A stretch of 26,624 nt of DNA from a virus, in IMG/VR virus record IMGVR_UViG_3300025671_000424, positions 1-26,624 of that record; one strand, given 5' to 3'. This document shows, in pieces, positions 11,284 to 25,844 of this stretch. The position numbers were made by a program, and so were the translations under genes. Positions within the stretch are counted from its first letter, which is position 1. Every line of letters begins with the position of its first letter. The notes under the pieces were generated by a model. The model was given only the letters and a program-made list of their open reading frames with translations. It was not told the origin of the DNA and made no database searches.

Positions 11284-11720
11284 AAAGGAATATCATCATC
11301 TAATTCAACCTCTTTAGCACCTTGAAACTCATTTTTTATAGTATCCTCAATACCTTGAGAAGAATCTTGAGAATTTCTAGAATCAAGCATTTGTAAGTTT
11401 GAGTTATAGTTTTGTAGAATTATTTCAGTTGTGTATTTTTCAATACCGCTCTTATCAGTCCATTTTCTAGTTTGTAAAGCACCTTCAATATAAAGTTTAG
11501 AGCCTTTTTTAACATAATTTTTAATTACGCCAACTAAACCTTGAGAAAATACAACTATTCTATGCCATTCGGTTTTTGACTGTCTCTCACCTGTATTTTT
11601 ATCTTTCCAATTTTCTGTAGTAGCAAGTGAAAAGTTGGCAATTTCTCTACCATCTTGTGTTGCTCTTATTTCTGGATCTTGGCCCACATTACCAATTAAT
11701 GTAACTTTATTTAATGACAT
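11280..11720 (-). CDS. ssb: Single-stranded DNA-binding protein
   Basis: A 146-residue SSB. The OB-fold covers residues 1-110 with 'MSLNKVTLIGNVGQDPEIR', 'IANFSLATTENWKDKNTGE', 'TEWHRIVVFSQGLVGVIKNYVKKGSKLYIEGALQTRKW'. A short low-complexity linker leads to the acidic tip 'DDDIPF', the peptide that recruits replication and repair partners. It coats single strands during phage replication and recombination, alongside YqaJ, RecT and RusA. It has its own upstream region of about 160 bases with a promoter-like element. It is the last gene on the minus strand and runs head-on into the DUF285 gene with overlapping stops. Confidence 0.97.
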   Translation of the reverse strand: MSLNKVTLIGNVGQDPEIRATQDGREIANFSLATTENWKDKNTGERQSKTEWHRIVVFSQGLVGVIKNYVKKGSKLYIEGALQTRKWTDKSGIEKYTTEIILQNYNSNLQMLDSRNSQDSSQGIEDTIKNEFQGAKEVELDDDIPF

Positions 11721-11739
11721 ATTTTATTTATTTTGATTA

Positions 11740-11839
11740 TTATTATTTAATTAAAAAAACATGTTCAACACATACACAGGCTAAACATATTCTAAACATA
11801 TTAGCAGAACCAAATCTATTCTGACTTATCAAATAGATT
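11740..11839 (-). promoter_or_regulatory. Putative ssb promoter and operator-like repeats
   Basis: On the minus strand TTGAAC (11768-11763) is followed after 17 bases by TAATAA (11745-11740), a fair sigma70-like pair about 20 bases before the ssb start. The -35 box overlaps the palindrome AACATGTT (11758-11765). Further upstream are two adjacent copies of CTAAACATAT (11781-11790 and 11792-11801, written on +) and an 8-bp perfect inverted repeat AATCTATT/AATAGATT (11813-11820, 11832-11839). These look like protein-binding sites. The rest of the 11721-11881 gap is plain AT-rich sequence. Confidence 0.4.
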
Positions 11840-11881: not shown

Positions 11882-13015
11882 TTATCCGCCTTGTGTAAAA
11901 TCAACAAACTCGCCAGCTTGTAATTGTTCAACCATTGGAGGGGTTACATCACTATCTTTATTTTGACTAACTCTTAGGACGTGTCTTTTATCAAATTTCG
12001 CTATGTAATGAAATCCTTTTGCACAAATAGCCTTATCCATTTTCTGAATTATCTTGCAATTAGTTTGTTCTAATTCTGTTTTTAAGATAGTAAACTGATT
12101 GTTTATAATTCCTCTCTCGTTTAAAAGCTCGTTAAGCTCGTTATCTGCCATAATTTCACCATATTTATTTGGGTACATTTTAGCTAACATTTTCTTTTCA
12201 CGCATTAATTTATCTTTGTTATCACTTAGGTTAGGCAATATTACCTTATCCATTGCCTCTTGGAAGCGTTTTAAAGCTAGTTTGCAGATGTTTTGAATTG
12301 TTTTATTAGCTTTGTAGGTGTAGGTGTAGAGGTTGTAGTATTTATCAATATCAGAATCAATTATATATTTTTCAGATATATCACCCAGTTCATCATCAAT
12401 TTTATCAAGCATTTCTAGCTTACCAAGAATCTTACCCTTAAAAAAATCATTATCAAACTCTTTTTCTTTTGGTGTTAAACAAGCTAACAATCCCCAGTCA
12501 TGACCACAAACTAACATATTGTATTGGAGTTGGAAAATGTAAGCCCAGCGAGTGCCTGCCTCTGCCTCAAAATTAAACTGATAAGGCGTTGTTTTGACTT
12601 CCAACATACCTTTGCTAGCCTTTATTTCCTTTTTATCATAATCAATAAAATCTTCTTTAGCTTCAACAAATCCATCAGGAGAACAAGCCGCCAACTCGTC
12701 AATATCAGAATTAATTATAAAATCTTTTGATCCAGTTGCAACAAAATTCTTGTTTTCTTGGTTAAATCTGTTTATAATGAAATCTTCCATTCCAAGCCCA
12801 AATTCACTGTAAACAGGATTAATTGGATCTGGTTTTACATCAAATTTCTTTTCAAGGTAAGTCTCAAGAGCAGTTTTAAAGCTTGTCTCATTCTCAATAC
12901 CTATTTGAGCAAGTTCTTTTTTGCAATAGTGTAGGGCGATTGAAAATATTTCTGAACCACCAATATATTTACGCTTTTCTGTTAGCCACTCTTGGCTTTG
13001 TTGTTTAATTGTCAT
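11882..13015 (-). CDS. YqaJ-type viral recombinase exonuclease
   Basis: A 377-residue nuclease of the YqaJ / lambda-exonuclease fold. The active-site set is visible: 'YIGGSE' (17-22), 'FGLGMED' with Glu77 (72-78), 'CSPDGF' with Asp114 (111-116), 'LEVKT' with Glu139 and Lys141, and 'FQLQYNML' (161-168). It would chew double-stranded ends 5' to 3', giving 3' tails for the RecT annealase encoded upstream. The C-terminal 150 residues are helical and charged, longer than the minimal domain. The next gene upstream ends 3 bases before its start, so it is part of a multi-gene transcript. Confidence 0.88.
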   Translation of the reverse strand: MTIKQQSQEWLTEKRKYIGGSEIFSIALHYCKKELAQIGIENETSFKTALETYLEKKFDVKPDPINPVYSEFGLGMEDFIINRFNQENKNFVATGSKDFIINSDIDELAACSPDGFVEAKEDFIDYDKKEIKASKGMLEVKTTPYQFNFEAEAGTRWAYIFQLQYNMLVCGHDWGLLACLTPKEKEFDNDFFKGKILGKLEMLDKIDDELGDISEKYIIDSDIDKYYNLYTYTYKANKTIQNICKLALKRFQEAMDKVILPNLSDNKDKLMREKKMLAKMYPNKYGEIMADNELNELLNERGIINNQFTILKTELEQTNCKIIQKMDKAICAKGFHYIAKFDKRHVLRVSQNKDSDVTPPMVEQLQAGEFVDFTQGG

Positions 13016-13260: not shown

Positions 13261-13369
13261 ATTAATATTATTTACTTATCCAATCCAATAAACTTAAACT
13301 ACTCTTTGTTAAGAGCTTTTTAGCCTTACTCTTCAAATCTTCTTTATTATCAAAATTTTCAGCAAATAA
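13261..13369 (-). pseudogene. Orphan C-terminal copy of the XRE regulator gene
   Basis: This 109-base stretch matches bases 14254-14362 without gaps and with 7 mismatches by my count. On the minus strand it still reads as the last 33 residues of the XRE protein ('FAENFDNKEDLKSKAKKLL' through 'DWISK' and stop). It has no start codon, and an in-frame stop lies just before it. It is a remnant of duplication or recombination; the coiled-coil gene sits between the two copies. Confidence 0.85.
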
Positions 13370-13377
13370 TCGTCATT

Positions 13378-14238
13378 TTAATACTTTATATATAAATGAG
13401 GAATTTCTCCTTTTACTACCGCCTTAATTAAATCCTTTAAATATCCATCAGCTGTCATAACTACTGGAATCATGGCTTTAAAAATTTCATTATGCACCTT
13501 TCGTTTATGTTCAATATTATTAGCTTTTCTTTCCTCTTCTTCTTTTAATTTTCCAGCTTGTAATTCTTCTTGTTGCTTCTGAAGTTGTAAGGATCTTTCT
13601 TTTTCTTCTAGCTCTCTTTTTATTCTATTATCCGCCTCAATTCTTGCTTTTTCTTCTGCTTCTTTTCTTATCGCATCTTCTCTTTCTTTTCTAGCTCGCT
13701 CTTCTTCTTTTAATCTTTCTTCCTCTTCTTTTTGTAATGTTTGTTTTTTCAGCAATGCAGTTTCTTTGAGTGAGTTTAAAATATTTATAGCTTCATCTTT
13801 TAAAGCTAACCAGTTAAAATTATAAAGCTCTTCAAATTCTTTTAATTTATAATCAATGACTTGTATGTTTGGAAAAGTAATATCTGTATGCTTAATTTCT
13901 TTTAATTTTTTCTCTGCATCATTTATTGGCTTTAATATTTGATCTATTATGTTGTCTTTACCAGTAGAAAGTGTTGTTGATATTTTGCTTCTAATATTAG
14001 CAATCTTCTTGCCTTCTGCCTCATAAGGCTCACAAATTTCTTTTAATAACTTTACGGATTTATTTGCTTGTGTCTTTAATTCTTTTGCTTTCTTTATATC
14101 ATCGGCATTATTAAAATCAAAAACTATATCTTTTAAGCTATTTATCTCTTCCAAAAAATTATTAACAGATTCCTCATTGGTGATAAAGTCTTTATTTAAA
14201 GTCGTTTTTATATTATAAATTTGTATTTCATTTGTCAT
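13378..14238 (-). CDS. Coiled-coil protein of the recombination cassette
   Basis: A 286-residue protein, mostly helical. The N-terminal third has 'DDIKKAKELKTQANKSVKLLKEICEPYEAEGKKI', typical of DUF1351-like phage proteins. Residues about 165-240 are an almost uninterrupted Glu/Lys/Arg coiled coil. The end, 'RKVHNEIFKAMIPVVMTADGYLKDLIKAVVKGEIPHLYIKY', is a compact domain often seen at the C-terminus of phage proteins encoded beside RecT and exonucleases. A helper role in recombination or nuclease control is inferred from position. The gene is bracketed by the two copies of the 109-base duplication, so it may have arrived or been rearranged as a unit. Confidence 0.65.
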   Translation of the reverse strand: MTNEIQIYNIKTTLNKDFITNEESVNNFLEEINSLKDIVFDFNNADDIKKAKELKTQANKSVKLLKEICEPYEAEGKKIANIRSKISTTLSTGKDNIIDQILKPINDAEKKLKEIKHTDITFPNIQVIDYKLKEFEELYNFNWLALKDEAINILNSLKETALLKKQTLQKEEEERLKEEERARKEREDAIRKEAEEKARIEADNRIKRELEEKERSLQLQKQQEELQAGKLKEEEERKANNIEHKRKVHNEIFKAMIPVVMTADGYLKDLIKAVVKGEIPHLYIKY

Positions 14239-14253
14239 AATGTTTTAATTTTA

Positions 14254-14362
14254 ATTAATATTATTTACTTATCCAATCCAATAAACTTAAACTACTCTTT
14301 GTTAAAAGCTTTTTAGCCTTGCTTTTAAAGTCCTCTTTATTATCCAAATTTTCAGCAAATAA
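14254..14362 (-). repeat. Full-gene copy of the 109-base duplication
   Basis: This is the partner of 13261-13369. It comprises the 3' end of the XRE gene plus 7 bases beyond its stop. The offset is a constant 993 bases with no gaps, so the two copies are recent relative to the divergence of the phage. Confidence 0.85.
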
Positions 14363-14548
14363 ATAAATTACTGATAAAGGAATACCAAAAGCCTCTGAAT
14401 ATTTTTGCAAAGTTTCATTAGTTGGGTTTTTAATTCCTTTTTCAATTTGTGAAATATAAGAGCGACTTATGTTTAACTTTTCGCTTAATTCTAATTGAGT
14501 CAGTTTATTGAAAGTTCTTGTATGTTTTAATATTTTTGGTAAGTTCAT
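14261..14548 (-). CDS. XRE-family transcriptional regulator
   Basis: A 95-residue protein with a Cro/CI-type helix-turn-helix at about residues 8-62: 'HTRTFNKLTQLELSEKLNISRSYISQIEKGIKNPTNETLQKYSEAFGIPLSVIYLF'. The C-terminal 30 residues are basic. No dimerisation or peptidase domain is present, so it is a Cro-like or accessory regulator rather than a full CI repressor. It overlaps the upstream gene by 4 bases. Its 3' end is duplicated about 1 kb downstream as an untranslatable fragment. Confidence 0.9.
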   Translation of the reverse strand: MNLPKILKHTRTFNKLTQLELSEKLNISRSYISQIEKGIKNPTNETLQKYSEAFGIPLSVIYLFAENLDNKEDFKSKAKKLLTKSSLSLLDWISK

Positions 14549-15395: not shown

Positions 15396-15625
15396 CAATT
15401 AATTTCATATTTTTTAAGAATTTTATTTAATCTTTTTTCACTAATAGTTTTAGTGGCGGAATAAAAAGCCTCCTGCCTCTCTTGCTCGTCATCTAAATAT
15501 AAAGCAGTCCTTGCAGCCCCTAATATGTAGCACATTCCAGTTAATTTACCTTGCAACTCCAATATATCAGAATCCATCTTGTTTATTATTTTTAATAAAT
15601 CATATCGCTTTATATTCCTACTCAT
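15392..15625 (-). CDS. Small helical protein next to RecT
   Basis: A 77-residue protein starting at the ATG at 15625 that overlaps the RecT stop. It has 'DSDILELQGKLTGMCYILGAARTALYLDDEQERQEAFYSATKTISEKRL', predicted as two or three helices. A role linked to RecT is suggested only by the overlap. Confidence 0.55.
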   Translation of the reverse strand: MSRNIKRYDLLKIINKMDSDILELQGKLTGMCYILGAARTALYLDDEQERQEAFYSATKTISEKRLNKILKKYEINC

Positions 15626-16346
15626 CACCCTCAAATTCTAAATTATCAGGAATATTAGCGGTTTTACTAACATCTTTTAATTCAAAATCTTTATTATCAT
15701 GTTGTTCTAAATTAGATAATTGTTGAATAGAGCTAAAATGTATCTTGCAAGCTCTTCTAATTAAAGCCACTTTTGCCTTTTCTTCAAACCAAGCATTCCA
15801 AATAAAGGCTTGTTTTGCACAACCTTTAATCTTGTTAATCTCATCAATATTCATCACGTCACAAAAACTTAACTTCTTTTCGCCTAGTGAGTACGAGATA
15901 TAACAAAAACCCCCTATAATTTTATCTCTTTTTGCAAAAGGATTTTCAACATCTAAACTATAAGTAGTAATATCACCCTCTTTTTTTAGAGTAAATTTAT
16001 CACCTTCATAAACTAATCTACAATCAATATTAGCATCTGGATACGCTCTTTTAATGGCATAGATAAAACCACGATAACCAACCTGTAATTGAGCTTCATT
16101 TTTATATTTTACTAAATGGCAATGCTGTCTCCCATCTATTTCTAAACCTAAATCATGAGCTTGCTTGATGCAACTTACTATACTATTAACTGTACACTCT
16201 GTTAAATCTTGTTTACTTCCTTTTGTTTTCTGAATCTCATTCAAAATACTAGTGATATATTTATCTTTACTGTTGGCAAAGATATTACCTATTACACTAG
16301 ATTGAGACAATCCATCTTTAATTATCAATATTCTGTCTTTACTCAT
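15618..16346 (-). CDS. recT: RecT-family single-strand annealing protein
   Basis: A 242-residue protein with RecT features in order: 'CIKQAHDLGLEIDGRQHCHLVKYKNEAQLQVGYRGFIYAIKRA' (59-101), a central 'DVENPFAKRDKIIGGFCYISYS', and the typical 'FIWNAWFEEKAKVALIRRACK' helix near residues 186-206. It anneals complementary strands exposed by an exonuclease; the YqaJ protein encoded about 2.6 kb downstream is the expected partner. A variable acidic C-terminal tail follows. Overlap with small genes on both sides indicates one operon. Confidence 0.92.
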   Translation of the reverse strand: MSKDRILIIKDGLSQSSVIGNIFANSKDKYITSILNEIQKTKGSKQDLTECTVNSIVSCIKQAHDLGLEIDGRQHCHLVKYKNEAQLQVGYRGFIYAIKRAYPDANIDCRLVYEGDKFTLKKEGDITTYSLDVENPFAKRDKIIGGFCYISYSLGEKKLSFCDVMNIDEINKIKGCAKQAFIWNAWFEEKAKVALIRRACKIHFSSIQQLSNLEQHDNKDFELKDVSKTANIPDNLEFEGDE

Positions 16347-17210: not shown

Positions 17211-17351
17211 TTAGTTGCTCCTTTTATAGTTATTGATTAAAGACTTTACTTTATCTATTAACTGGAAAGGAACTGAAATTCTTTTTGAATTAAGGTTTTT
17301 TTTTGTGTTTTTTGGTCGTCCTGCACCAGTTCTTTTTCCTCCTTTAGGCAT
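17211..17351 (-). CDS. 46-residue GAGRP-type small DNA-binding-like protein
   Basis: The ATG at 17351 overlaps the end of the PAPS-reductase-like gene by 8 bases and is preceded by purine-rich sequence. The protein begins 'MPKGGKRTGAGRPKNTKK', the GAGRPK motif common at the N-terminus of small phage and plasmid proteins. 'RISVPFQLIDKVKSLI' follows, resembling a short ribbon-helix segment. It might bind DNA. It is joined by overlap to the upstream gene. Confidence 0.6.
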   Translation of the reverse strand: MPKGGKRTGAGRPKNTKKNLNSKRISVPFQLIDKVKSLINNYKRSN

Positions 17352-18552
17352 TTTCTTTTAGTTTCTGTAAGGTTTTTATTTGTTTATATTTCTCATAAGC
17401 TTCTGATTTTGGCTGCGTTTGACCAAGACCTTTACAGTAATAGTCATTTCTTAATATGCATCGAGCCATTCTTTTCCAAGATGGAGCCCATTGCTTAACT
17501 TCTAAATCGTGGGGAGCTTGATCTGGAATAAATTTATAACCTCTTTTTTTCCATCCAACTATAAATTTCTTAAATCTTTCTTTATAGTGGTTTTGCATTT
17601 TTGTTGGCAATGATTTTAATAAATAATTTACATAAGACTCCCAAGTATGATTATCTGGTTTTGTGATATTGTTGTAACCGTTAATATTACCTTTTTCTTG
17701 AATGTACAAAGCTCCACTGTTAACTCCGCTAACCCTATTTAATAGTTTATACCAAGTATCTGGCTCAAGTATATGATATAGCCATAAACCTTTTTTTTGA
17801 TCATCTCCAAACGGCTGGCAAAGTCTTTGATTGCTTAGTTTAACGCCTGCCATAGTCATCATATCATATATTTTATTATGTTGCAATGATTTATTTTTAG
17901 AATGAAAAATCCATATATCTTCCGTTCTCCAATCGTATATAGGATATACATTATATAAAAAATTAGATAATTTTGTAGTCCATTTCCACCCTTTATATGT
18001 TAATCCTTTTTTTGTAGATGTAATAGCCTTATAACGATGCAAGCTTTCATCTGCTCTAATACCTATAAACCCAGCGGTTAATTTGTCGCTAGCGTACCAT
18101 TTGCCAAATATAACCATAAATTCTTCAAATTCCATTTTTGGAATATAAAAATCATATTGATTTAAATCTGCGGCCTCTTTTGGTTTTTCTCTAATCCAAA
18201 TATTTTTATTGTTTTCATCCCAACAAACCCATTTTGGCTGATAATCACTAACTGCATTTCTTAATTGCAATTCCCCACAAAACCAGTGCAAATCTATATT
18301 TTCTTTATATTCTTCAATTATTTCCCTTAAATGATTAATGGTTTCTTTATATTGAGCTTCAAGATCAATAATCAACAGTCCTACTTTTTTATTTCTTTTT
18401 TTTGCCTCGTCTAAAACTAAATGAGTCATTACTGAGCTGTCTTTACCCCCACTAAAACTAATATAATATTTTTCAAAATTATCAAAAACATTGCTTATTC
18501 TTTTTTTAGATGCCTCTAAAACATTTTCTTGTAAATAAATTTTATTTGTCAT
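17344..18552 (-). CDS. PAPS-reductase-family protein, IbrA-like (DUF3440)
   Basis: A 402-residue member of the adenine-nucleotide alpha-hydrolase/PAPS reductase group. The PP-loop 'SGGKDSS' is at residues 34-40. Further matches to IbrA/DUF3440 are 'AGFIGIRADESLHRY' (about 160-175), 'VYPIYDWRTEDIWIFH', 'LCQPFGDDQKKGLWLYH' and the C-terminal 'WKRMARCILRNDYYCKGLGQTQPKSEAYEKYK'. IbrA of E. coli prophages acts with IbrB to switch surface-protein genes; the chemistry is unknown. In DNA phosphorothioation the related DndC uses this fold for sulphur transfer. Here it follows a ParB-like gene by 5 bases, the same pairing as ibrB/ibrA. Confidence 0.8.
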   Translation of the reverse strand: MTNKIYLQENVLEASKKRISNVFDNFEKYYISFSGGKDSSVMTHLVLDEAKKRNKKVGLLIIDLEAQYKETINHLREIIEEYKENIDLHWFCGELQLRNAVSDYQPKWVCWDENNKNIWIREKPKEAADLNQYDFYIPKMEFEEFMVIFGKWYASDKLTAGFIGIRADESLHRYKAITSTKKGLTYKGWKWTTKLSNFLYNVYPIYDWRTEDIWIFHSKNKSLQHNKIYDMMTMAGVKLSNQRLCQPFGDDQKKGLWLYHILEPDTWYKLLNRVSGVNSGALYIQEKGNINGYNNITKPDNHTWESYVNYLLKSLPTKMQNHYKERFKKFIVGWKKRGYKFIPDQAPHDLEVKQWAPSWKRMARCILRNDYYCKGLGQTQPKSEAYEKYKQIKTLQKLKENA

Positions 18553-18557
18553 TTTTT

Positions 18558-19691
18558 TTAATATAAATCAATTTGTCTGTCAATGCACAAAGCGTCATCT
18601 AAAGAGACGTTTTCTCTATCGTTTTTTTTTAACCATATATTTAAATATTCTAACGCTATAGAATTGGCTTTATTCTGTTGTTCTTTTGATAATTTAAACC
18701 AAGCACCACTATAAGAAGAGGGAACGCCAGAAACTATGCAAACAGAAGCTTGACCAAGCCAAGCTATTCTATTCATAGCTCTATTACTTAAATAATGCTC
18801 ACAACTGTATTTCCATTCATTAATAACCCTGTTCAAAGCGTTTCTAAATAAATCTTCATTTGTTAAAATTCTAATATATTCTTGTTCACATTGTTCGTGC
18901 GTTAAATTTTCTTTTACACTCTGATAAAAACCGGCTTTGTGACATTCCCATTTATCGTAGGTGTGAAAAATTCTAGTTGAGTCATTTTCGTTTGGTATTT
19001 TATATAAATTCATTTCTTTCTCAACTTCGTCAGTTAAAATTTCATAATCATTATCTAGATAGTCAGAAGATTCCCAAGATTTTGAAAAATCATCATCGCT
19101 AAACAAATGCTCCAAACCAGACACTTGACAAAGCCTCAAAACTTCTTCTTCATCCATTCCTAATTGCTTAGCAATTCTTTTATTTGCCCAATTACGATTT
19201 TTTAATTCGATAACTATTTCGCTCATAGCGTTGATTTGATGCTTACCTCTCGCTCTATTATGCCTAATCGTTGAAGCAATACGGTCATTTTTATCTTGCT
19301 GCTCTTTCCTTATTCCAACAATAGGTAGATAGCCACTAACTTTTTTTCTTACAATATCAGATTCTCTACCAACTCTATTTCTATGAAAACCATCTATAAC
19401 TTCTACTTTTTCTTTTTCTGGATTTTCCCATGTTACAATTGGTTGAGTATAACCATCATTGATAATCGAAAGCTCTAAAAGCTGCATTTCTGGGGGAGCT
19501 ACTTTATTTGGGTTATAATCGTTAGCAACCACATCATTATTAACAATCCACTTAACAAAGTCTACTGGCTCACTTTTAAAAGGGCATAAATTATGTATAT
19601 GCTCTCTTATATCGTTAATAATTTCTATTTTCTCTTTTAGCTCTTTATTTTCCAACAAATCACTTATCATTTTTTTTATTTCGTTTTTCAT
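18558..19691 (-). CDS. ParB-like protein (IbrB-like) with an added C-terminal domain
   Basis: A 377-residue protein. Residues 45-155 carry a ParB/Srx-type domain: 'LELSIINDGYTQPIVTW', 'VEVIDGFHRNRVGRE' (96-110) and 'STIRHNRARGKH' (140-151), with GFHR in place of the usual GEHR. A helix-turn-helix-like stretch follows ('NRNWANKRIAKQLGMDEEEV'). IbrB of E. coli is a shorter ParB-like protein. Here about 150 extra residues follow, with 'EWKYSCEHYLSNRAMNRIAWLGQASVC' and 'GAWFKLSKEQQNKANSIALEYLNIW', which I recall as a stand-alone phage protein type. The pair with the PAPS-reductase-like gene implies a joint function. Confidence 0.75.
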   Translation of the reverse strand: MKNEIKKMISDLLENKELKEKIEIINDIREHIHNLCPFKSEPVDFVKWIVNNDVVANDYNPNKVAPPEMQLLELSIINDGYTQPIVTWENPEKEKVEVIDGFHRNRVGRESDIVRKKVSGYLPIVGIRKEQQDKNDRIASTIRHNRARGKHQINAMSEIVIELKNRNWANKRIAKQLGMDEEEVLRLCQVSGLEHLFSDDDFSKSWESSDYLDNDYEILTDEVEKEMNLYKIPNENDSTRIFHTYDKWECHKAGFYQSVKENLTHEQCEQEYIRILTNEDLFRNALNRVINEWKYSCEHYLSNRAMNRIAWLGQASVCIVSGVPSSYSGAWFKLSKEQQNKANSIALEYLNIWLKKNDRENVSLDDALCIDRQIDLY

Positions 19692-19699
19692 TTTATAAA

Positions 19700-19749
19700 A
19701 ATTGGTTAATAACTTTTGATTAAATTAACCAATTAATTCAAAGAGTCAA
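19700..19749 (-). promoter_or_regulatory. Promoter/operator before the ParB-PAPS pair
   Basis: On the minus strand TTGACT (19749-19744) is a -35-like box with an AT-rich -10 (TAATTT at 16 or AATTTA at 17 bases). An 11-bp perfect inverted repeat AATTGGTTAAT (19700-19710) / ATTAACCAATT (19724-19734), 13 bases apart, covers the -10 and start site. The ParB-like gene starts about 10 bases downstream. The rest of 19750-19851 shows nothing but AT-rich sequence. Confidence 0.5.
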
Positions 19750-19851
19750 GTATTTTTTAATAAATAGTGTTTTTTCTAAAAACAAAACCAACCAGTAATT
19801 ATTGTTAATAAAAGTAAGTGTATGTTATAATTCATCTTCTCCTATTTTGAT

Positions 19852-20169
19852 TTATTTAGCATCTCTGTAATCCATATATTTAATAATATCATCAACATTT
19901 CTAATTGGAAATTTCTTATTTTCTTTTAACTGATAATAATAGCTATCACTACCATCAGTTTCAAATAAAAGATAGCTAGCCAATTCATCGCCTAATATTT
20001 CATCAAGTAATTTTGTAACCCCTGTCAAATAATCATCATCTATTGATTGAACGTAGGGCGTAAATTCTGGGATTAGATTTCTAATTTTATCGTTTAGCTT
20101 TTCGTACTTCTTTTGTTTGGCGTGTAAAAGTTTAAGTAGTGCTAAAGCTTCTTTTTTTATCTTATTCAT
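19852..20169 (-). CDS. Hypothetical protein
   Basis: A 105-residue protein, helical N-terminus ('KKEALALLKLLHAKQKKYEKLNDKIRNLI') and acidic C-terminus with 'DELASYLLFETDGSDSYYYQLKENKKFPI'. I see no known family. It follows the 39-residue gene by one base. Confidence 0.55.
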   Translation of the reverse strand: MNKIKKEALALLKLLHAKQKKYEKLNDKIRNLIPEFTPYVQSIDDDYLTGVTKLLDEILGDELASYLLFETDGSDSYYYQLKENKKFPIRNVDDIIKYMDYRDAK

Positions 20170-20170
20170 A

Positions 20171-20290
20171 TTATTTTATTAATTTTGGATATTTCTTCCT
20201 TAAGTATTTGCGAGCTTCTCTAATTTCTTTAGTCTGTTTTTTTAGAAATTCTTTTATCATTTCTAAAGGCTCTTTTTCTTTCATATCCAT
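20171..20290 (-). CDS. 39-residue basic helical protein
   Basis: The ATG at 20290 lies inside the end of the small membrane-protein gene. The product, 'MDMKEKEPLEMIKEFLKKQ...', is a single charged helix ending in a basic 'RKYLRKKYPKLIK'. The stop falls 2 bases before the next start. Function unknown. Confidence 0.45.
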   Translation of the reverse strand: MDMKEKEPLEMIKEFLKKQTKEIREARKYLRKKYPKLIK

Positions 20291-20394
20291 TTACTAAAAT
20301 TAATTACTATTTCCTTTTGTTGTGAAAACCACAATAAAAATGCTCCTATTGCCATTACTCCCAGGATTGATAGTATTATTATTGCTTGTGTCAT
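20281..20394 (-). CDS. 37-residue single-span membrane protein
   Basis: A short frame with one clear transmembrane helix ('AIIILSILGVMAIGAFLLWF', residues 4-23) and a short polar tail. The ATG at 20394 lies 4 bases after the upstream stop, and its end overlaps the next start by 10 bases. Such microproteins in early phage regions often modulate host membrane proteins or superinfection, which is inference here. Confidence 0.5.
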   Translation of the reverse strand: MTQAIIILSILGVMAIGAFLLWFSQQKEIVINFSKWI

Positions 20395-20398
20395 AATT

Positions 20399-20575
20399 TT
20401 ATTTATTTATTAATATATCGTAAATATCTTCAATATGTTCTAGTTCAATTTTTAAAGATTGTTCGCTTTGCTCTGCTTTGATTCCTAGCTCTAATCTTTG
20501 CTTGTGGTTTTGTTCCGCTCTTTCAATTCTAAGCTTGCGAGCTTCTAATATTTCTTCTTGTGTTAATTTTGTCAT
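20399..20575 (-). CDS. 58-residue coiled-coil protein
   Basis: A charged helix throughout ('LTQEEILEARKLRIERAEQNHKQRLELGIKAEQSEQSL...'), a short coiled coil of unknown function. The ATG at 20575 is the only plausible start. It is encoded just downstream of the methyltransferase-headed chimera. Confidence 0.5.
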   Translation of the reverse strand: MTKLTQEEILEARKLRIERAEQNHKQRLELGIKAEQSEQSLKIELEHIEDIYDILINK

Positions 20576-20586
20576 AATTTTTTTAA

Positions 20587-20625
20587 TTTAATTTAAGTTA
20601 ATAAAAGTGGTTGTTTTACTCTTGC
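20587..20625 (-). repeat. 39-bp direct repeat, copy 1
   Basis: A perfect 39-base match to 21172-21210, 585 bases apart, same orientation. Copy 2 is the end of the gene at 21178-21741; copy 1 is fused to a methyltransferase-like start. Confidence 0.95.
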
Positions 20626-20655
20626 TATACCATCAAAAAGGCTTAATACTTTCAT
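20593..20655 (-). pseudogene. Chimeric remnant: cytosine methyltransferase head joined to a foreign tail
   Basis: A 20-codon frame on the minus strand. Its first 11 residues, 'MKVLSLFDGIA', are the canonical start of phage and bacterial C5-cytosine DNA methyltransferases, where this loop binds S-adenosylmethionine. From there it continues 'RVKQPLLLT' and stop, exactly the C-terminus of the protein encoded at 21178-21741. The join falls at a shared GCA codon, at the edge of the 39-bp repeat. It reads as the scar of a recombination that removed a methyltransferase gene body. The motif-like start could be chance, but the coincidence with the repeat edge argues otherwise. Confidence 0.7.
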
Positions 20656-20686
20656 AGCTCATTATTCTTCTTTTGTGTTTTACTTA

Positions 20687-20708
20687 CGCTTTCTCTCAAA
20701 GCGGTGGT
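20687..20708 (-). repeat. Hairpin and 16-bp repeat, copy 1
   Basis: CTCTCAAAGCGGTGGT at 20693-20708 recurs perfectly at 20897-20912; the two copies flank the zinc-finger-like gene. Copy 1 also forms a perfect hairpin CGCTTT-5-AAAGCG (20687-20703). No U-tract follows on either strand. Confidence 0.85.
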
Positions 20709-20712
20709 CAAA

Positions 20713-20871
20713 TTATTTAATAATCTTAAAATGCTTATCACACTTCTTGCATCCAATATAAGTATAAACAACACATCTTTGATCTGGGTTTTTAAAATTA
20801 GCACCAAAAGTTTTAGTTACTTTCTCGTGCCTACAGAGTAATTCTTTTAAAAAGTCTTTTATCTCACTCAT
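20713..20871 (-). CDS. 52-residue zinc-finger-like protein
   Basis: Read from the ATG at 20871, preceded by a perfect AGGAGG at 5-base spacing, the best ribosome site on this strand. The protein has 'CRHEKV' near the N-terminus and 'YTYIGCKKCDKHFKII' near the C-terminus, giving a Cys-His / Cys-x2-Cys-x2-His set that could bind zinc. It is flanked by 16-bp repeats. Function unknown; a small DNA-binding or adaptor protein is plausible. Confidence 0.65.
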   Translation of the reverse strand: MSEIKDFLKELLCRHEKVTKTFGANFKNPDQRCVVYTYIGCKKCDKHFKIIK

Positions 20872-20896
20872 TCAATCCTCCTTATTTATTGTTGCG

Positions 20897-20912
20897 CTCT
20901 CAAAGCGGTGGT
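20897..20912 (-). repeat. 16-bp direct repeat, copy 2
   Basis: Second perfect copy of the 16-base repeat, abutting the stop of the 84-residue gene. It could form a weaker 4-bp hairpin with neighbouring GCG. Confidence 0.85.
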
Positions 20913-21166
20913 TAAAATTTCTTTCTAGTTATTTCTTCCACCTTTTCCAGAACTTCATTTTGATCTAACAAGTCAATCTCTGAATAAAATTGTCTTGTTG
21001 CATCTCCATTATCTAGGCTCATGACTACATAATCCCCTTTTGATAGATCCTCGCTCTTATCACTGATAACCCTAGTAATTCTGTAAGCGTTTATTGTTAA
21101 GCCTCCTTTTCCGTAGGGTTGATGCTCATAAACGGTATATACTCTTTGTTTTACTTTGTATTTCAT
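20912..21166 (-). CDS. Hypothetical protein
   Basis: An 84-residue, mostly beta protein: 'MKYKVKQRVYTVYEHQPYGKGGLTINAYRITRVISDKSEDLSKGDYVVMSLDNGD', the look of a small barrel. A helical tail follows. The gene lies inside the block bounded by the 39-bp repeats and starts 11 bases after the upstream gene's stop. Confidence 0.6.
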   Translation of the reverse strand: MKYKVKQRVYTVYEHQPYGKGGLTINAYRITRVISDKSEDLSKGDYVVMSLDNGDATRQFYSEIDLLDQNEVLEKVEEITRKKF

Positions 21167-21171
21167 TTCGT

Positions 21172-21210
21172 TTTAATTTAAGTTAATAAAAGTGGTTGTT
21201 TTACTCTTGC
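21172..21210 (-). repeat. 39-bp direct repeat, copy 2
   Basis: The native copy: it covers the last 10 codons plus stop of the gene at 21178-21741 and 6 bases beyond. Confidence 0.95.
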
Positions 21211-21741
21211 AATGCCCTTTAGAGTATCATAGAATAAGGCTTTATCTTGATCTAGTTTTTCTTTTAGATAGACAGCCATTTTTTTTATTCTGTCATCTGA
21301 TAGATTTTCTTTAACTTTACAATAGGTGTCCAACATCAACTTAATATCAACATAAAGGGGGCATTTATAGCGACTACAGAACAATCTTTCATAATAAGGT
21401 GCATTGAGCCACACACCAACAGTTTTCGCTTGTATGGTTAAATTTTCCTCATATTCTTTCTTTTTCTTCTCAATCTCTTCATCTGTTAATGGTTTTTCAA
21501 CTAAAATTTCTAACCATTGGGCAAGCGAAGGGTAACCTCCCCATTGTAAATTAAATTTTTTATGCCATTCGTCATTTGTTAAAAGCCAAAGTTCCTGAAA
21601 TTTCTTTTTAATAACTTCATCTGGTACTTTTTCAGTTTGAGATTGAATTATGTTTAAGAGATTTTCAAAGCCTTTGTTTAGCTTAAAGTTAAAATTCTCC
21701 GCCGTTGTTTCAAAAAATGACTCTAGTTTTAATTTTTCCAT
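21178..21741 (-). CDS. Probable replication-accessory protein, unrecognised family
   Basis: A 187-residue helical protein. 'VIKKKFQELWLLTNDEWHKKFNLQWGGYPSLAQWLEILV' (about 43-82) is a tryptophan-rich block, and 'CSRYKCPLYVDIKLMLDTYCKV' follows. I cannot assign a family. The gene overlaps the end of the DUF6291-like replication gene by 13 bases, so it is probably a partner in replication, for example in helicase loading, by position only. Its last codons form one copy of the 39-bp repeat. Confidence 0.6.
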   Translation of the reverse strand: MEKLKLESFFETTAENFNFKLNKGFENLLNIIQSQTEKVPDEVIKKKFQELWLLTNDEWHKKFNLQWGGYPSLAQWLEILVEKPLTDEEIEKKKKEYEENLTIQAKTVGVWLNAPYYERLFCSRYKCPLYVDIKLMLDTYCKVKENLSDDRIKKMAVYLKEKLDQDKALFYDTLKGIARVKQPLLLT

Positions 21742-22358
21742 GCTAACCTCGATATTTCTTTCTTAAAGTTATTTTTAGGCTCAAATACACCCGTGTAATT
21801 GCTTTCGATAGAGTTTTCCAAAGCCTCATTAGCTGCACCTATTTTGTTATTTTCAAATTTTACTAATTTTTTAATTACCAACTCAACAGCTTTTTCCGTT
21901 GGTAATGCTTTTTTCTTTTTTCTCATATTCAAATATTCATTCCATAATTCAACATCAACAAAATTTGGAATTTGAATTTCTTTTTTTTCTAATTTTTTTT
22001 CTTCTTCTTCATTATCATTAACATTTACATTAACATTATCATTAACATTTACATTATAGGCTTTTTTGGGTTTTTCTAAACCCAATGGGTTTTTTGGGTT
22101 TTTATCTTTTTTAGGTCTTCCACCCTTTAGTCCGTTAGATCTATTGGCATTTGCTTTCTTTTCGTATTTTAGGTTATCTAGTCTAAATTGGTTCTTAAAG
22201 AACAAGAAAAAAGGATAAATTGTTGAGGTGGGTTTTGGTTCTTTTTTAGTAATTTGATACTGAAAAATTGCATCATAAAGCTTACCTTTATCTTGACTAG
22301 ATAAATGACTAGTTGGCTCATAAAATGATTTAAAAAGTAGAAATGATTCTTTTGACAT
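21729..22358 (-). CDS. DUF6291-like replication initiation protein
   Basis: A 209-residue protein. The N-terminus, 'ESFLLFKSFYEPTSHLSSQDKGKLYDAIFQYQ', is the DUF6291-type winged-helix-like domain found in phage replication organisers. A basic 'GLKGGRPKKDKNPKNP' linker and an Asn/Val run encoded by an ATTAAC-like microsatellite follow. The C-terminal part, 'ELWNEYLNMRKKKKAL' through 'ALENSIESNYTGVFEPKN', is the DnaD-like end common in such proteins. It probably binds the phage origin and recruits helicase. A structured leader of about 100 bases lies upstream. The AAGG before the ATG is only 2 bases away, an unusual spacing. Confidence 0.75.
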   Translation of the reverse strand: MSKESFLLFKSFYEPTSHLSSQDKGKLYDAIFQYQITKKEPKPTSTIYPFFLFFKNQFRLDNLKYEKKANANRSNGLKGGRPKKDKNPKNPLGLEKPKKAYNVNVNDNVNVNVNDNEEEEKKLEKKEIQIPNFVDVELWNEYLNMRKKKKALPTEKAVELVIKKLVKFENNKIGAANEALENSIESNYTGVFEPKNNFKKEISRLAWKN

Positions 22359-22465
22359 AACCTTAATATATTAATATTGTAAGAGCAAGGTCGGAGGAAG
22401 GCTCTTACAACTTCCCCCTAGATTCGTTGTTGTAATCTAGAAAAGAGTATAAAATACTATGTCAA
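22359..22465 (-). promoter_or_regulatory. Structured leader and promoter of the replication gene
   Basis: On the minus strand TTGACA (22465-22460) is followed by a palindrome AGTAT-3-ATACT (22446-22458). Then comes a 7-bp hairpin CTAGATT/AATCTAG (22418-22424, 22434-22440) and a perfect 10-bp hairpin TTGTAAGAGC/GCTCTTACAA (22377-22386, 22401-22410). The loop of the second hairpin contains CTTCCTCC and ACCTT; ACCTT can pair with AAGGT next to the ATG (22360-22364), and CTTCCTCC with the upstream GGGGGAAG. No good -10 box is seen at the standard distance. The 22466-22516 stretch upstream is plain AT-rich sequence. Confidence 0.6.
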
Positions 22466-23695: not shown

Positions 23696-23913
23696 CTATT
23701 TAACTAATGGTTTAGGTAAAGGCATCCAATGAGTCGCTTCAATTGGATCATTTTTCAACTTATATGAGTTATTCAACACTTCTTTGACGAGGTCAATATC
23801 ATCACTACTATTTAGATTTTTATATACATAATCTGAAATGGTTTAGTAGTAACTTGTGATAAATCTTTTAAAGAATCTTTGAGTTCTAGTTTTATTTCTC
23901 TTTGCGTAATCAT
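23696..23913 (-). pseudogene. DUF551-like gene broken by a frameshift
   Basis: The ATG at 23913 opens 'MITQREIKLELKDSLKDLSQ...' but the frame stops after 33 codons. In a second frame the sequence continues 'SDYVYKNLNSSDDIDLVKEVL' and ends 'PIEATHWMPLPKPLVK', where 'ATHWMPLPxP' is the mark of DUF551. Reading one frame into the other near 'AAACCATTTCAG' would give an intact protein of about 72 residues. The gene span is not a multiple of three. No canonical slippery heptamer is seen, so a mutation or sequencing error is likelier than programmed shifting. Confidence 0.65.
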
Positions 23914-24055: not shown

Positions 24056-24562
24056 CTATTTAGCATCTTCCTCCTTAATTTTTAACTCTCCATCTAATAC
24101 GAAGTGTTTGCTATTTGTTCTTTGCCCCTTAATTGATTTGCAAATTATGGAATTGTAAGCATAACAGGCAGCGTAATATTCAATATCCCCTGCGTTAATA
24201 TTCCTTGCGTTAATATCCCCTGCTTTAATATCCACTGCGTTAATATTCCTTGCGTTAATATCCCCTGCGTTAATATCCCCTGCGTTAATATCCCCTGCGT
24301 TAATATCCCATGCGTTAATATTCCTTGCGTTAATATTCCTTGCGTTAATATCCCATGCGTTAATATCCCCTGCGTTAATATCCCATGCGTTAATATTCCT
24401 TGCGTTAATACCCATTGCTTTAATATTCCTTGCGTTAATATTCCTTGCGTTAATATTTGTATCAATGTTAATATCACATCTTATTATTAAATCATCTTCA
24501 ATGATTATATCGTTGTTAGAGTCAATTAATGCTTCTAGTTCTTCTTGTTTATTTATTATCAT
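24056..24562 (-). CDS. Pentapeptide-repeat-like protein
   Basis: A 168-residue protein. After a 35-residue acidic start, about 18 pentads of the form [R/W/G]-[N/D]-I-N-A run to about residue 127, with a short Tyr/Cys-rich end. The I at the centre with N/D before it fits the pentapeptide-repeat pattern, which makes a square beta-helix; some such proteins mimic DNA and inhibit gyrase, but that role is not shown here. DNA repeats every 15 bases, so repeat number could change by slippage. It overlaps the upstream gene by 4 bases. Confidence 0.65.
   Translation of the reverse strand: MIINKQEELEALIDSNNDIIIEDDLIIRCDINIDTNINARNINARNIKAMGINARNINAWDINAGDINAWDINARNINARNINAWDINAGDINAGDINAGDINARNINAVDIKAGDINARNINAGDIEYYAACYAYNSIICKSIKGQRTNSKHFVLDGELKIKEEDAK
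24185..24455 (-). repeat. 15-bp tandem array, about 18 units
   Basis: Units differ mainly at two adjacent codons: AGG AAT, GGG GAT or TGG GAT on the minus strand. The array also stays open in another frame because each unit is 15 bases with no stop, which explains a shadow frame there. Confidence 0.9.
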
Positions 24563-25236: not shown

Positions 25237-25257
25237 TATTAACAAAAACAAATAAGC

Positions 25258-25258
<1 letters not shown>
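25237..25258 (+). repeat. 22-bp direct repeat, copy 1
   Basis: A perfect match to 25823-25844. It ends at the A of the alanine-rich gene's ATG. It begins TATTAACAAAAACAAATAAG. Confidence 0.95.
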
Positions 25259-25821
<563 letters not shown>

Positions 25822-25822
25822 A

Positions 25823-25844
25823 TATTAACAAAAACAAATAAGCA
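25823..25844 (+). repeat. 22-bp direct repeat, copy 2
   Basis: Perfect second copy, immediately after the alanine-rich gene's stop codon and about 23 bases before the next gene. Confidence 0.95.

Follow-up and report, generated by a model that had tools for sequence, protein, structure and literature searches.

A cytosine methyltransferase gene start fused to a duplicated gene end at the probable border of a small phage cassette

Morons are accessory gene cassettes inserted between phage genes. Phages also carry orphan C5-cytosine methyltransferases (MTases; Pfam family PF00145). Mosaicism through illegitimate or short-homology recombination of the Red/RecET type involves module exchange at gene edges, a RecT-type protein with an exonuclease and joints of a few bases (PMC2327257), and that paper states, citing an earlier study, that RecET, a related pair, joins matches of 5-13 bp at about 1e-8. 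The promoter early stem-loop (PeSL) cassettes of T4-like phages have recurring border sequences tied to gene shuffling (PMC4503421). Here we describe a locus in the IMG/VR virus record IMGVR_UViG_3300025671_000424 (positions 1 to 26,624, the whole stretch that was analysed and is called the window below) that resembles each of these and departs from each. It shares with Red/RecET-type mosaicism the exchange at gene edges, the protein pair and the few-base joint, and differs from it by a displaced copy of a gene end, a truncated gene and later gene conversion between the copies. The recurring border sequences are reminiscent of PeSL cassettes, whereas most of the repeats in this phage are gene-end copies and each site has a different one. 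As with morons and other accessory cassettes, extra genes lie between neighbours inferred to be ancestral and the content of the slot varies among relatives, but the cassettes here are flanked by direct repeats of 16-56 bp, several of them made from the end of the flanking gene. Finally, the stub at the centre of this analysis has its first 11 residues and a DNA-level similarity (to contigs L011-L013) in common with orphan PF00145 enzymes; unlike them it is without the catalytic PC motif and the body, and is no longer an MTase. No matching case of a phage MTase remnant or of an insertion between repeats was seen among the listings of open-access text searches. As a product of phage mosaicism the scar is ordinary, but its detail is unusually legible.

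The stub and the genes around it are arranged as follows.

20399 to 20575, minus strand: 58-aa gene, presumed to have come next after geneX in the ancestor; a homologue lies beyond the acetyltransferase gene of contig L003
20587 to 20625, direct repeat: 39 bp, displaced copy of the geneX 3' end, directly upstream of the 58-aa gene
20593 to 20655, minus strand: chimeric frame of 20 codons, MTase head plus geneX tail, identical in contigs L001 and L002
20623 to 20655, minus strand: MTase head, 33 nt encoding MKVLSLFDGIA, with 29/33 and 27/33 nt identity to the intact MTase starts of L013 and L012
20713 to 20871, minus strand: 52-aa zinc-ribbon-like cassette gene with a strong ribosome-binding site, AAGGAGG
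20912 to 21166, minus strand: 84-aa cassette gene, with a 55% identical relative in contig L009 beside RusA-like and HNH-like genes
21172 to 21210, direct repeat: 39 bp, the copy in the geneX 3' end, two bases of which differ in L002
21178 to 21741, minus strand: geneX, 187 aa, function unknown, no Pfam or PHROGs family, 3' end duplicated

The chimeric frame reads MKVLSLFDGIARVKQPLLLT followed by a stop codon (translation of 20655-20590, minus strand). A loosened DNA pattern of its head, searched across the 2.9 million viral contigs of IMG/VR, was found outside the phage's own relatives in three contigs (L011-L013), all three of which encode full PF00145 proteins, as the first-pass annotation had led one to expect when it likened the frame's beginning to a C5-MTase N-terminus. 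Two of the three contigs share one protein, which leaves two independent cases. The proteins are 278-279 aa long, start with MKVLSLFDGIACG and align to PF00145 from the first position of the profile; residues 1-11 of the head are the same as theirs up to GIA, and the C-G that follows GIA is missing. The stub thus holds the start of the N-terminal SAM-binding motif I (VLSLFDGIA.G), while catalytic motif IV (PC) and the remaining PF00145 fold are absent, the frame stopping after 20 codons. A PF00145 profile search of the window record gave no match, and tblastn of the intact MTases against the window returned the head as the only credible match and no other MTase part.

That the head resembles an MTase start by chance is a reading to which we give next to no credence. 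Searches with the 20-mer against Pfam, PHROGs and PDB did come back empty, an expected null for a query too short for the filters, and the DNA pattern had no match in a collection of 84,980 species genomes. Against chance, the head scores 11/11 residues, while the best matches in simulated six-frame translations reach only 5-7/11, and 29 of its 33 nucleotides are identical to an intact MTase start. Blastn of the head against the three loci gave an E of 5e-6, although these loci had been picked by the head's own pattern. Two observations had been named in advance as contrary to an MTase origin, a head without profile similarity and relatives with the frame and no MTase; both were technically made, and the head pattern still ties the stub to MTases. 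From these alignments we take the head to be a real C5-MTase start, and a frame lacking all of the catalytic motifs is predicted to give no active enzyme, so that the MTase would be dead. It is very improbable that the frame is instead a functional small peptide under selection: it is identical in L001 and L002, but this identity is uninformative because the window and L002 differ at so few positions (see below), and the peptide would be half MTase motif I and half geneX end.

The two copies of the 39-bp repeat are exact in the window and lie 585 bp apart, and in 30 Markov simulations built from the window's dinucleotide frequencies the longest exact direct repeat arising by chance was 14-18 bp. 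GeneX (21741-21178, minus strand) ends in LKGIARVKQPLLLT before its stop codon, and the last 9 codons of the chimeric frame sit within the repeat of its 3' end. Translation and repeat therefore bear out the earlier statements that the frame's tail is the geneX C-terminus and that the switch lies at the GCA codon, on the edge of the repeat (20587-20625/21172-21210). At the amino-acid level the match between the chimera and the geneX tail extends to 12 residues (GIARVKQPLLLT), since the codons at the joint happened to read G-I-A in both parents (GGTATAGCA versus GGCATTGCA). When the chimera (GATGGTATAGCAAGAG) is aligned with the intact MTase of L013 (GATGGAATAGCATGTG) and geneX of L003 (AAGGGTATTGCAAGGG), the switch from MTase to geneX falls in a microhomology, GG.AT.GCA, of 3-9 bases that is in frame in both genes. 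The repeat had also been proposed as the deletion's own ends, which does not hold, the joint being at GG.AT.GCA and the L002 copies differing at two bases within the 39 bp. We read the repeat as a duplicated geneX 3' end, not a pair of deletion ends, and the microhomology as the apparent point of deletion or truncation. These data support the joint as a recombination product, and its presence in three contigs makes an assembly error unlikely. The GTA of the displaced copy is absent from geneX of both L003 and L002 and therefore arose during or after the joint. An 18-bp core of the repeat, TTATTAACTTAAATTAAA, was also considered as a genome-wide spacer; this was ruled out, as its only exact matches in the genome are the two repeat copies.

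Comparison with L002 suggests that the copies did not stay independent. In the 3,648 bp from position 20053 to position 23700, only two bases, at 21203 and 21196, set the window apart from L002. Both belong to the repeat copy inside geneX, and at each of them the window agrees with the displaced copy and L002 geneX does not. The geneX of L003 has the L002 base at 21203, which is therefore the older state there, and the window base at 21196. The chance that both differences fall within the 39 bp is about 1e-4 by position alone and about 1e-5 with base identity. That the two copies have recombined with each other since the joint is well supported by this comparison, and the simplest reading is that the geneX end was converted once by the displaced copy in the lineage of the window and L001. 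Homogenisation by gene conversion would be why the repeat is perfect in the window and not in L002. Two separate point mutations, one per lineage, are a possible but less likely account of 21203 and 21196.

Three relatives of geneX were found in IMG/VR: L001 (99.7% DNA identity over 7.6 kb), L002 (97%) and L003 (81% protein identity). The near-identical phage contigs L001 and L002 carry exactly the same MTase/geneX joint and resemble the window too closely to reveal in which order the events took place. In L003, an intact acetyltransferase gene stands in place of the stub and the two cassette genes (84 and 52 aa), so that a close relative lacks the cassette in this slot, as with a moron. The sequence TTTTATTAACTTAAAT ends geneX in L003 and, a second time, ends the acetyltransferase gene; since L003 thus holds a different cassette in the slot between two TTTTATTAACTTAAAT copies, the shared background would be geneX followed by the 58-aa gene. 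We infer that the slot between these two genes took different cassettes, each with a copy of the geneX end on its far side. The uninserted allele, with geneX directly before the 58-aa gene, was not found, and no match was obtained for geneX in the collection of 84,980 species genomes, for the DNA of 19700-22400 in the phage collection, or for the 84-aa, 52-aa, geneX, L003 acetyltransferase and chimera proteins in the same phage collection. Two further features of L003 were observed. At 11560-11760, after a Sak4-like ATPase gene, a 66-aa frame corresponds to the window's 286-aa protein, but only to its C-terminal part, and appears to be another truncated gene at a mosaic joint; the putative Sak4-like ATPase, recognised by eye, stands where the window has RecT.

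Taken together, the stub is probably the end of a dead MTase gene, marking the right-hand edge of a small cassette (the 84-aa and 52-aa genes and the MTase start) that was inserted by short-homology recombination. In the ancestor the 58-aa gene would have stood directly after geneX. The left end of the incoming fragment would have joined at or after the geneX end, and its right end, within the first codons of the MTase, would have recombined at GG.AT.GCA with the 3' end of the recipient's geneX, so that geneX stayed whole and its 3' end came to stand a second time past the cassette. The MTase may have been truncated as the cassette was captured, or it may have been whole at first and lost its body later, and either order would do; the copies would later have recombined and been made identical by gene conversion in this genome. 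Where two joints overlap, both neighbours should stay intact and the bases between should be duplicated, while gapped joints would break a gene. We propose that surviving insertions carry duplicated gene ends because, with almost no spare DNA, only overlapping joints spare the genes. The window encodes a single-strand binding protein (SSB) and the following two proteins; these two are the likely machinery.

11882 to 13015, minus strand: YqaJ-type recombination exonuclease (PF09588, E 5e-9)
15618 to 16346, minus strand: RecT-like single-strand annealing protein (phrog_148, E 5e-36)

Whole 84-aa and 52-aa ORFs lie between the 39-bp copies, which places the locus in our working class of repeat-flanked cassettes, defined as one or more whole ORFs between two long direct repeats of which one is the end of a flanking gene. 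No donor was found in which the 84-aa gene, the 52-aa gene and a full MTase follow one another. Contig L009 was rejected as the cassette donor, as RusA-like and HNH-like genes stand beside its relative of the 84-aa gene and an MTase is absent from the record. Within the cassette, a 20-bp near-perfect repeat, TTTGACCACCGCTTTGAGAG (minus strand), occurs at 20693-20712 and 20897-20916, ahead of the 52-aa gene and of the MTase stub, and may be a leader common to both or a recombination joint of earlier date.

A stricter version of this scenario is that a complete MTase was once resident between the 52-aa gene and a pre-existing second geneX end, and that its body was lost afterwards in a deletion running from the GIA codons to that copy. 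We regard this as possible, if somewhat doubtful. An intact MTase between direct repeats does exist (contig L012, genome G006), PF00145 proteins with the same start exist in other phages, and the L003 cassette, with its geneX-end copy beyond it, makes the required ancestor plausible; but it needs one event more than truncation on arrival, and a full MTase was found in the slot between geneX and the 58-aa gene in none of the relatives examined (L001, L002 and L003). Of the original proposal that recombination removed the body of an MTase, then, the MTase head and the recombination joint stand; a prior full gene in this lineage lacks an intact relative at the locus, and the expectation that related phages would have the full gene there was not borne out, L001 and L002 having the same joint and L003 the acetyltransferase gene. 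The stub may record a change in the phage's protection against restriction, and a past loss of methylation-based protection is possible.

Islands integrate at tRNA genes, repairing the gene and displacing its old end. A comparable site-specific integration at the geneX 3' end, by a recombinase acting on the 16-bp core (TTTTATTAACTTAAAT), would likewise repair the gene and displace its old end. The core is present at all four junctions in the window and L003, and the gene ends are restored; we nevertheless consider this unlikely, as tyrosine integrase (PF00589) and serine resolvase (PF00239) domains are absent from G000-G003 (records that may be fragments), the repeats at the other cassettes are unrelated and differ in length, with one of them at a gene's 5' end, and the joint is inside the MTase gene and not at the end of an element.

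Insertion of the cassette by short-homology recombination gains wider interest from a scan for exact direct repeats, 19 bp or longer, spaced 250-2,500 bp apart. In the window, all three long repeats (39, 52 and 22 bp) enclose whole genes at gene edges. The other two cases are these.

13261 to 13369, minus strand: displaced copy of the 3' end (last ~34 codons) of a 95-aa HTH regulator gene (14261-14548), 102/109 identical to 14254-14362, with 52 bp perfect
25237 to 25844, plus strand: third case, a 187-aa Ala-repeat gene (25258-25821) within a cassette between perfect 22-bp direct repeats (25237-25258 and 25823-25844)

The 52-bp pair encloses a 286-aa gene (13378-14238), its far copy being the displaced end of the regulator gene, and from its layout we take 13261-13369 to be a second gene-end duplication of the same architecture as the geneX case. 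The same layout was seen for 1/1 repeats in the L003 contig, 3/3 in G004, 1/1 in G006 and 3/4 in the L002 contig, where two of the three are the window's own 39-bp and 22-bp cassettes and thus not independent. The sole repeat of G006, a phage unrelated to the window's, is 31 bp long and perfect (L012 2042-2072 and 2930-2960; IMGVR_UViG_3300047473_000009), encloses the intact 278-aa MTase of L012 and consists of the first codons (5' end) of the gene after the MTase, polymerase-like by eye. No such repeats were found in simulated sequences or in lambda, phiAQ113, Mwe-JY13 and G005, and CV-1-33 has 15, nearly all within or between neighbouring related genes and one enclosing a whole gene; these control phages are a small set of differing base composition, which bears on any comparison of enrichment with phages in general.

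Since the cassette repeats range from 16 to 56 bp in length, and one of them duplicates a 5' end, it is not proven that all cassettes share one mechanism. Tentatively, and with more doubt than belief, we suggest that insertion with duplication of a gene end, by two overlapping short-homology joints that leave both neighbours intact, might be a common transposase-free route of gene gain in tightly packed RecT-bearing phages. If so, the gain and loss of genes could be read from displaced gene ends like the MTase stub, and any cassette could easily be lost again through its repeats. As a lead, the recurring cassettes between repeats are more interesting than the scar, itself a small fossil of phage gene exchange from whose sequence the donor family, the joint, the duplicated end and later gene conversion can be read; together they point to a testable route of phage gene gain.

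Some further features of the window were observed. The gene at 25258-25821 holds an alanine-rich repeat array (25540-25746), with a 9-bp insertion in L001 and a 203-aa version of the protein in L002. An 18-copy array of a 15-bp unit, AATATCCCTTGCGTT, lies at 24182-24456 inside the gene 24056-24562, and its length differs from that in L002. At 17344-19691, adjacent PAPS-reductase/DUF3440 and ParB-like genes form an IbrA/IbrB-like pair, which is also present in Microcystis phage Mwe-JY13, beside RecT and YqaJ.
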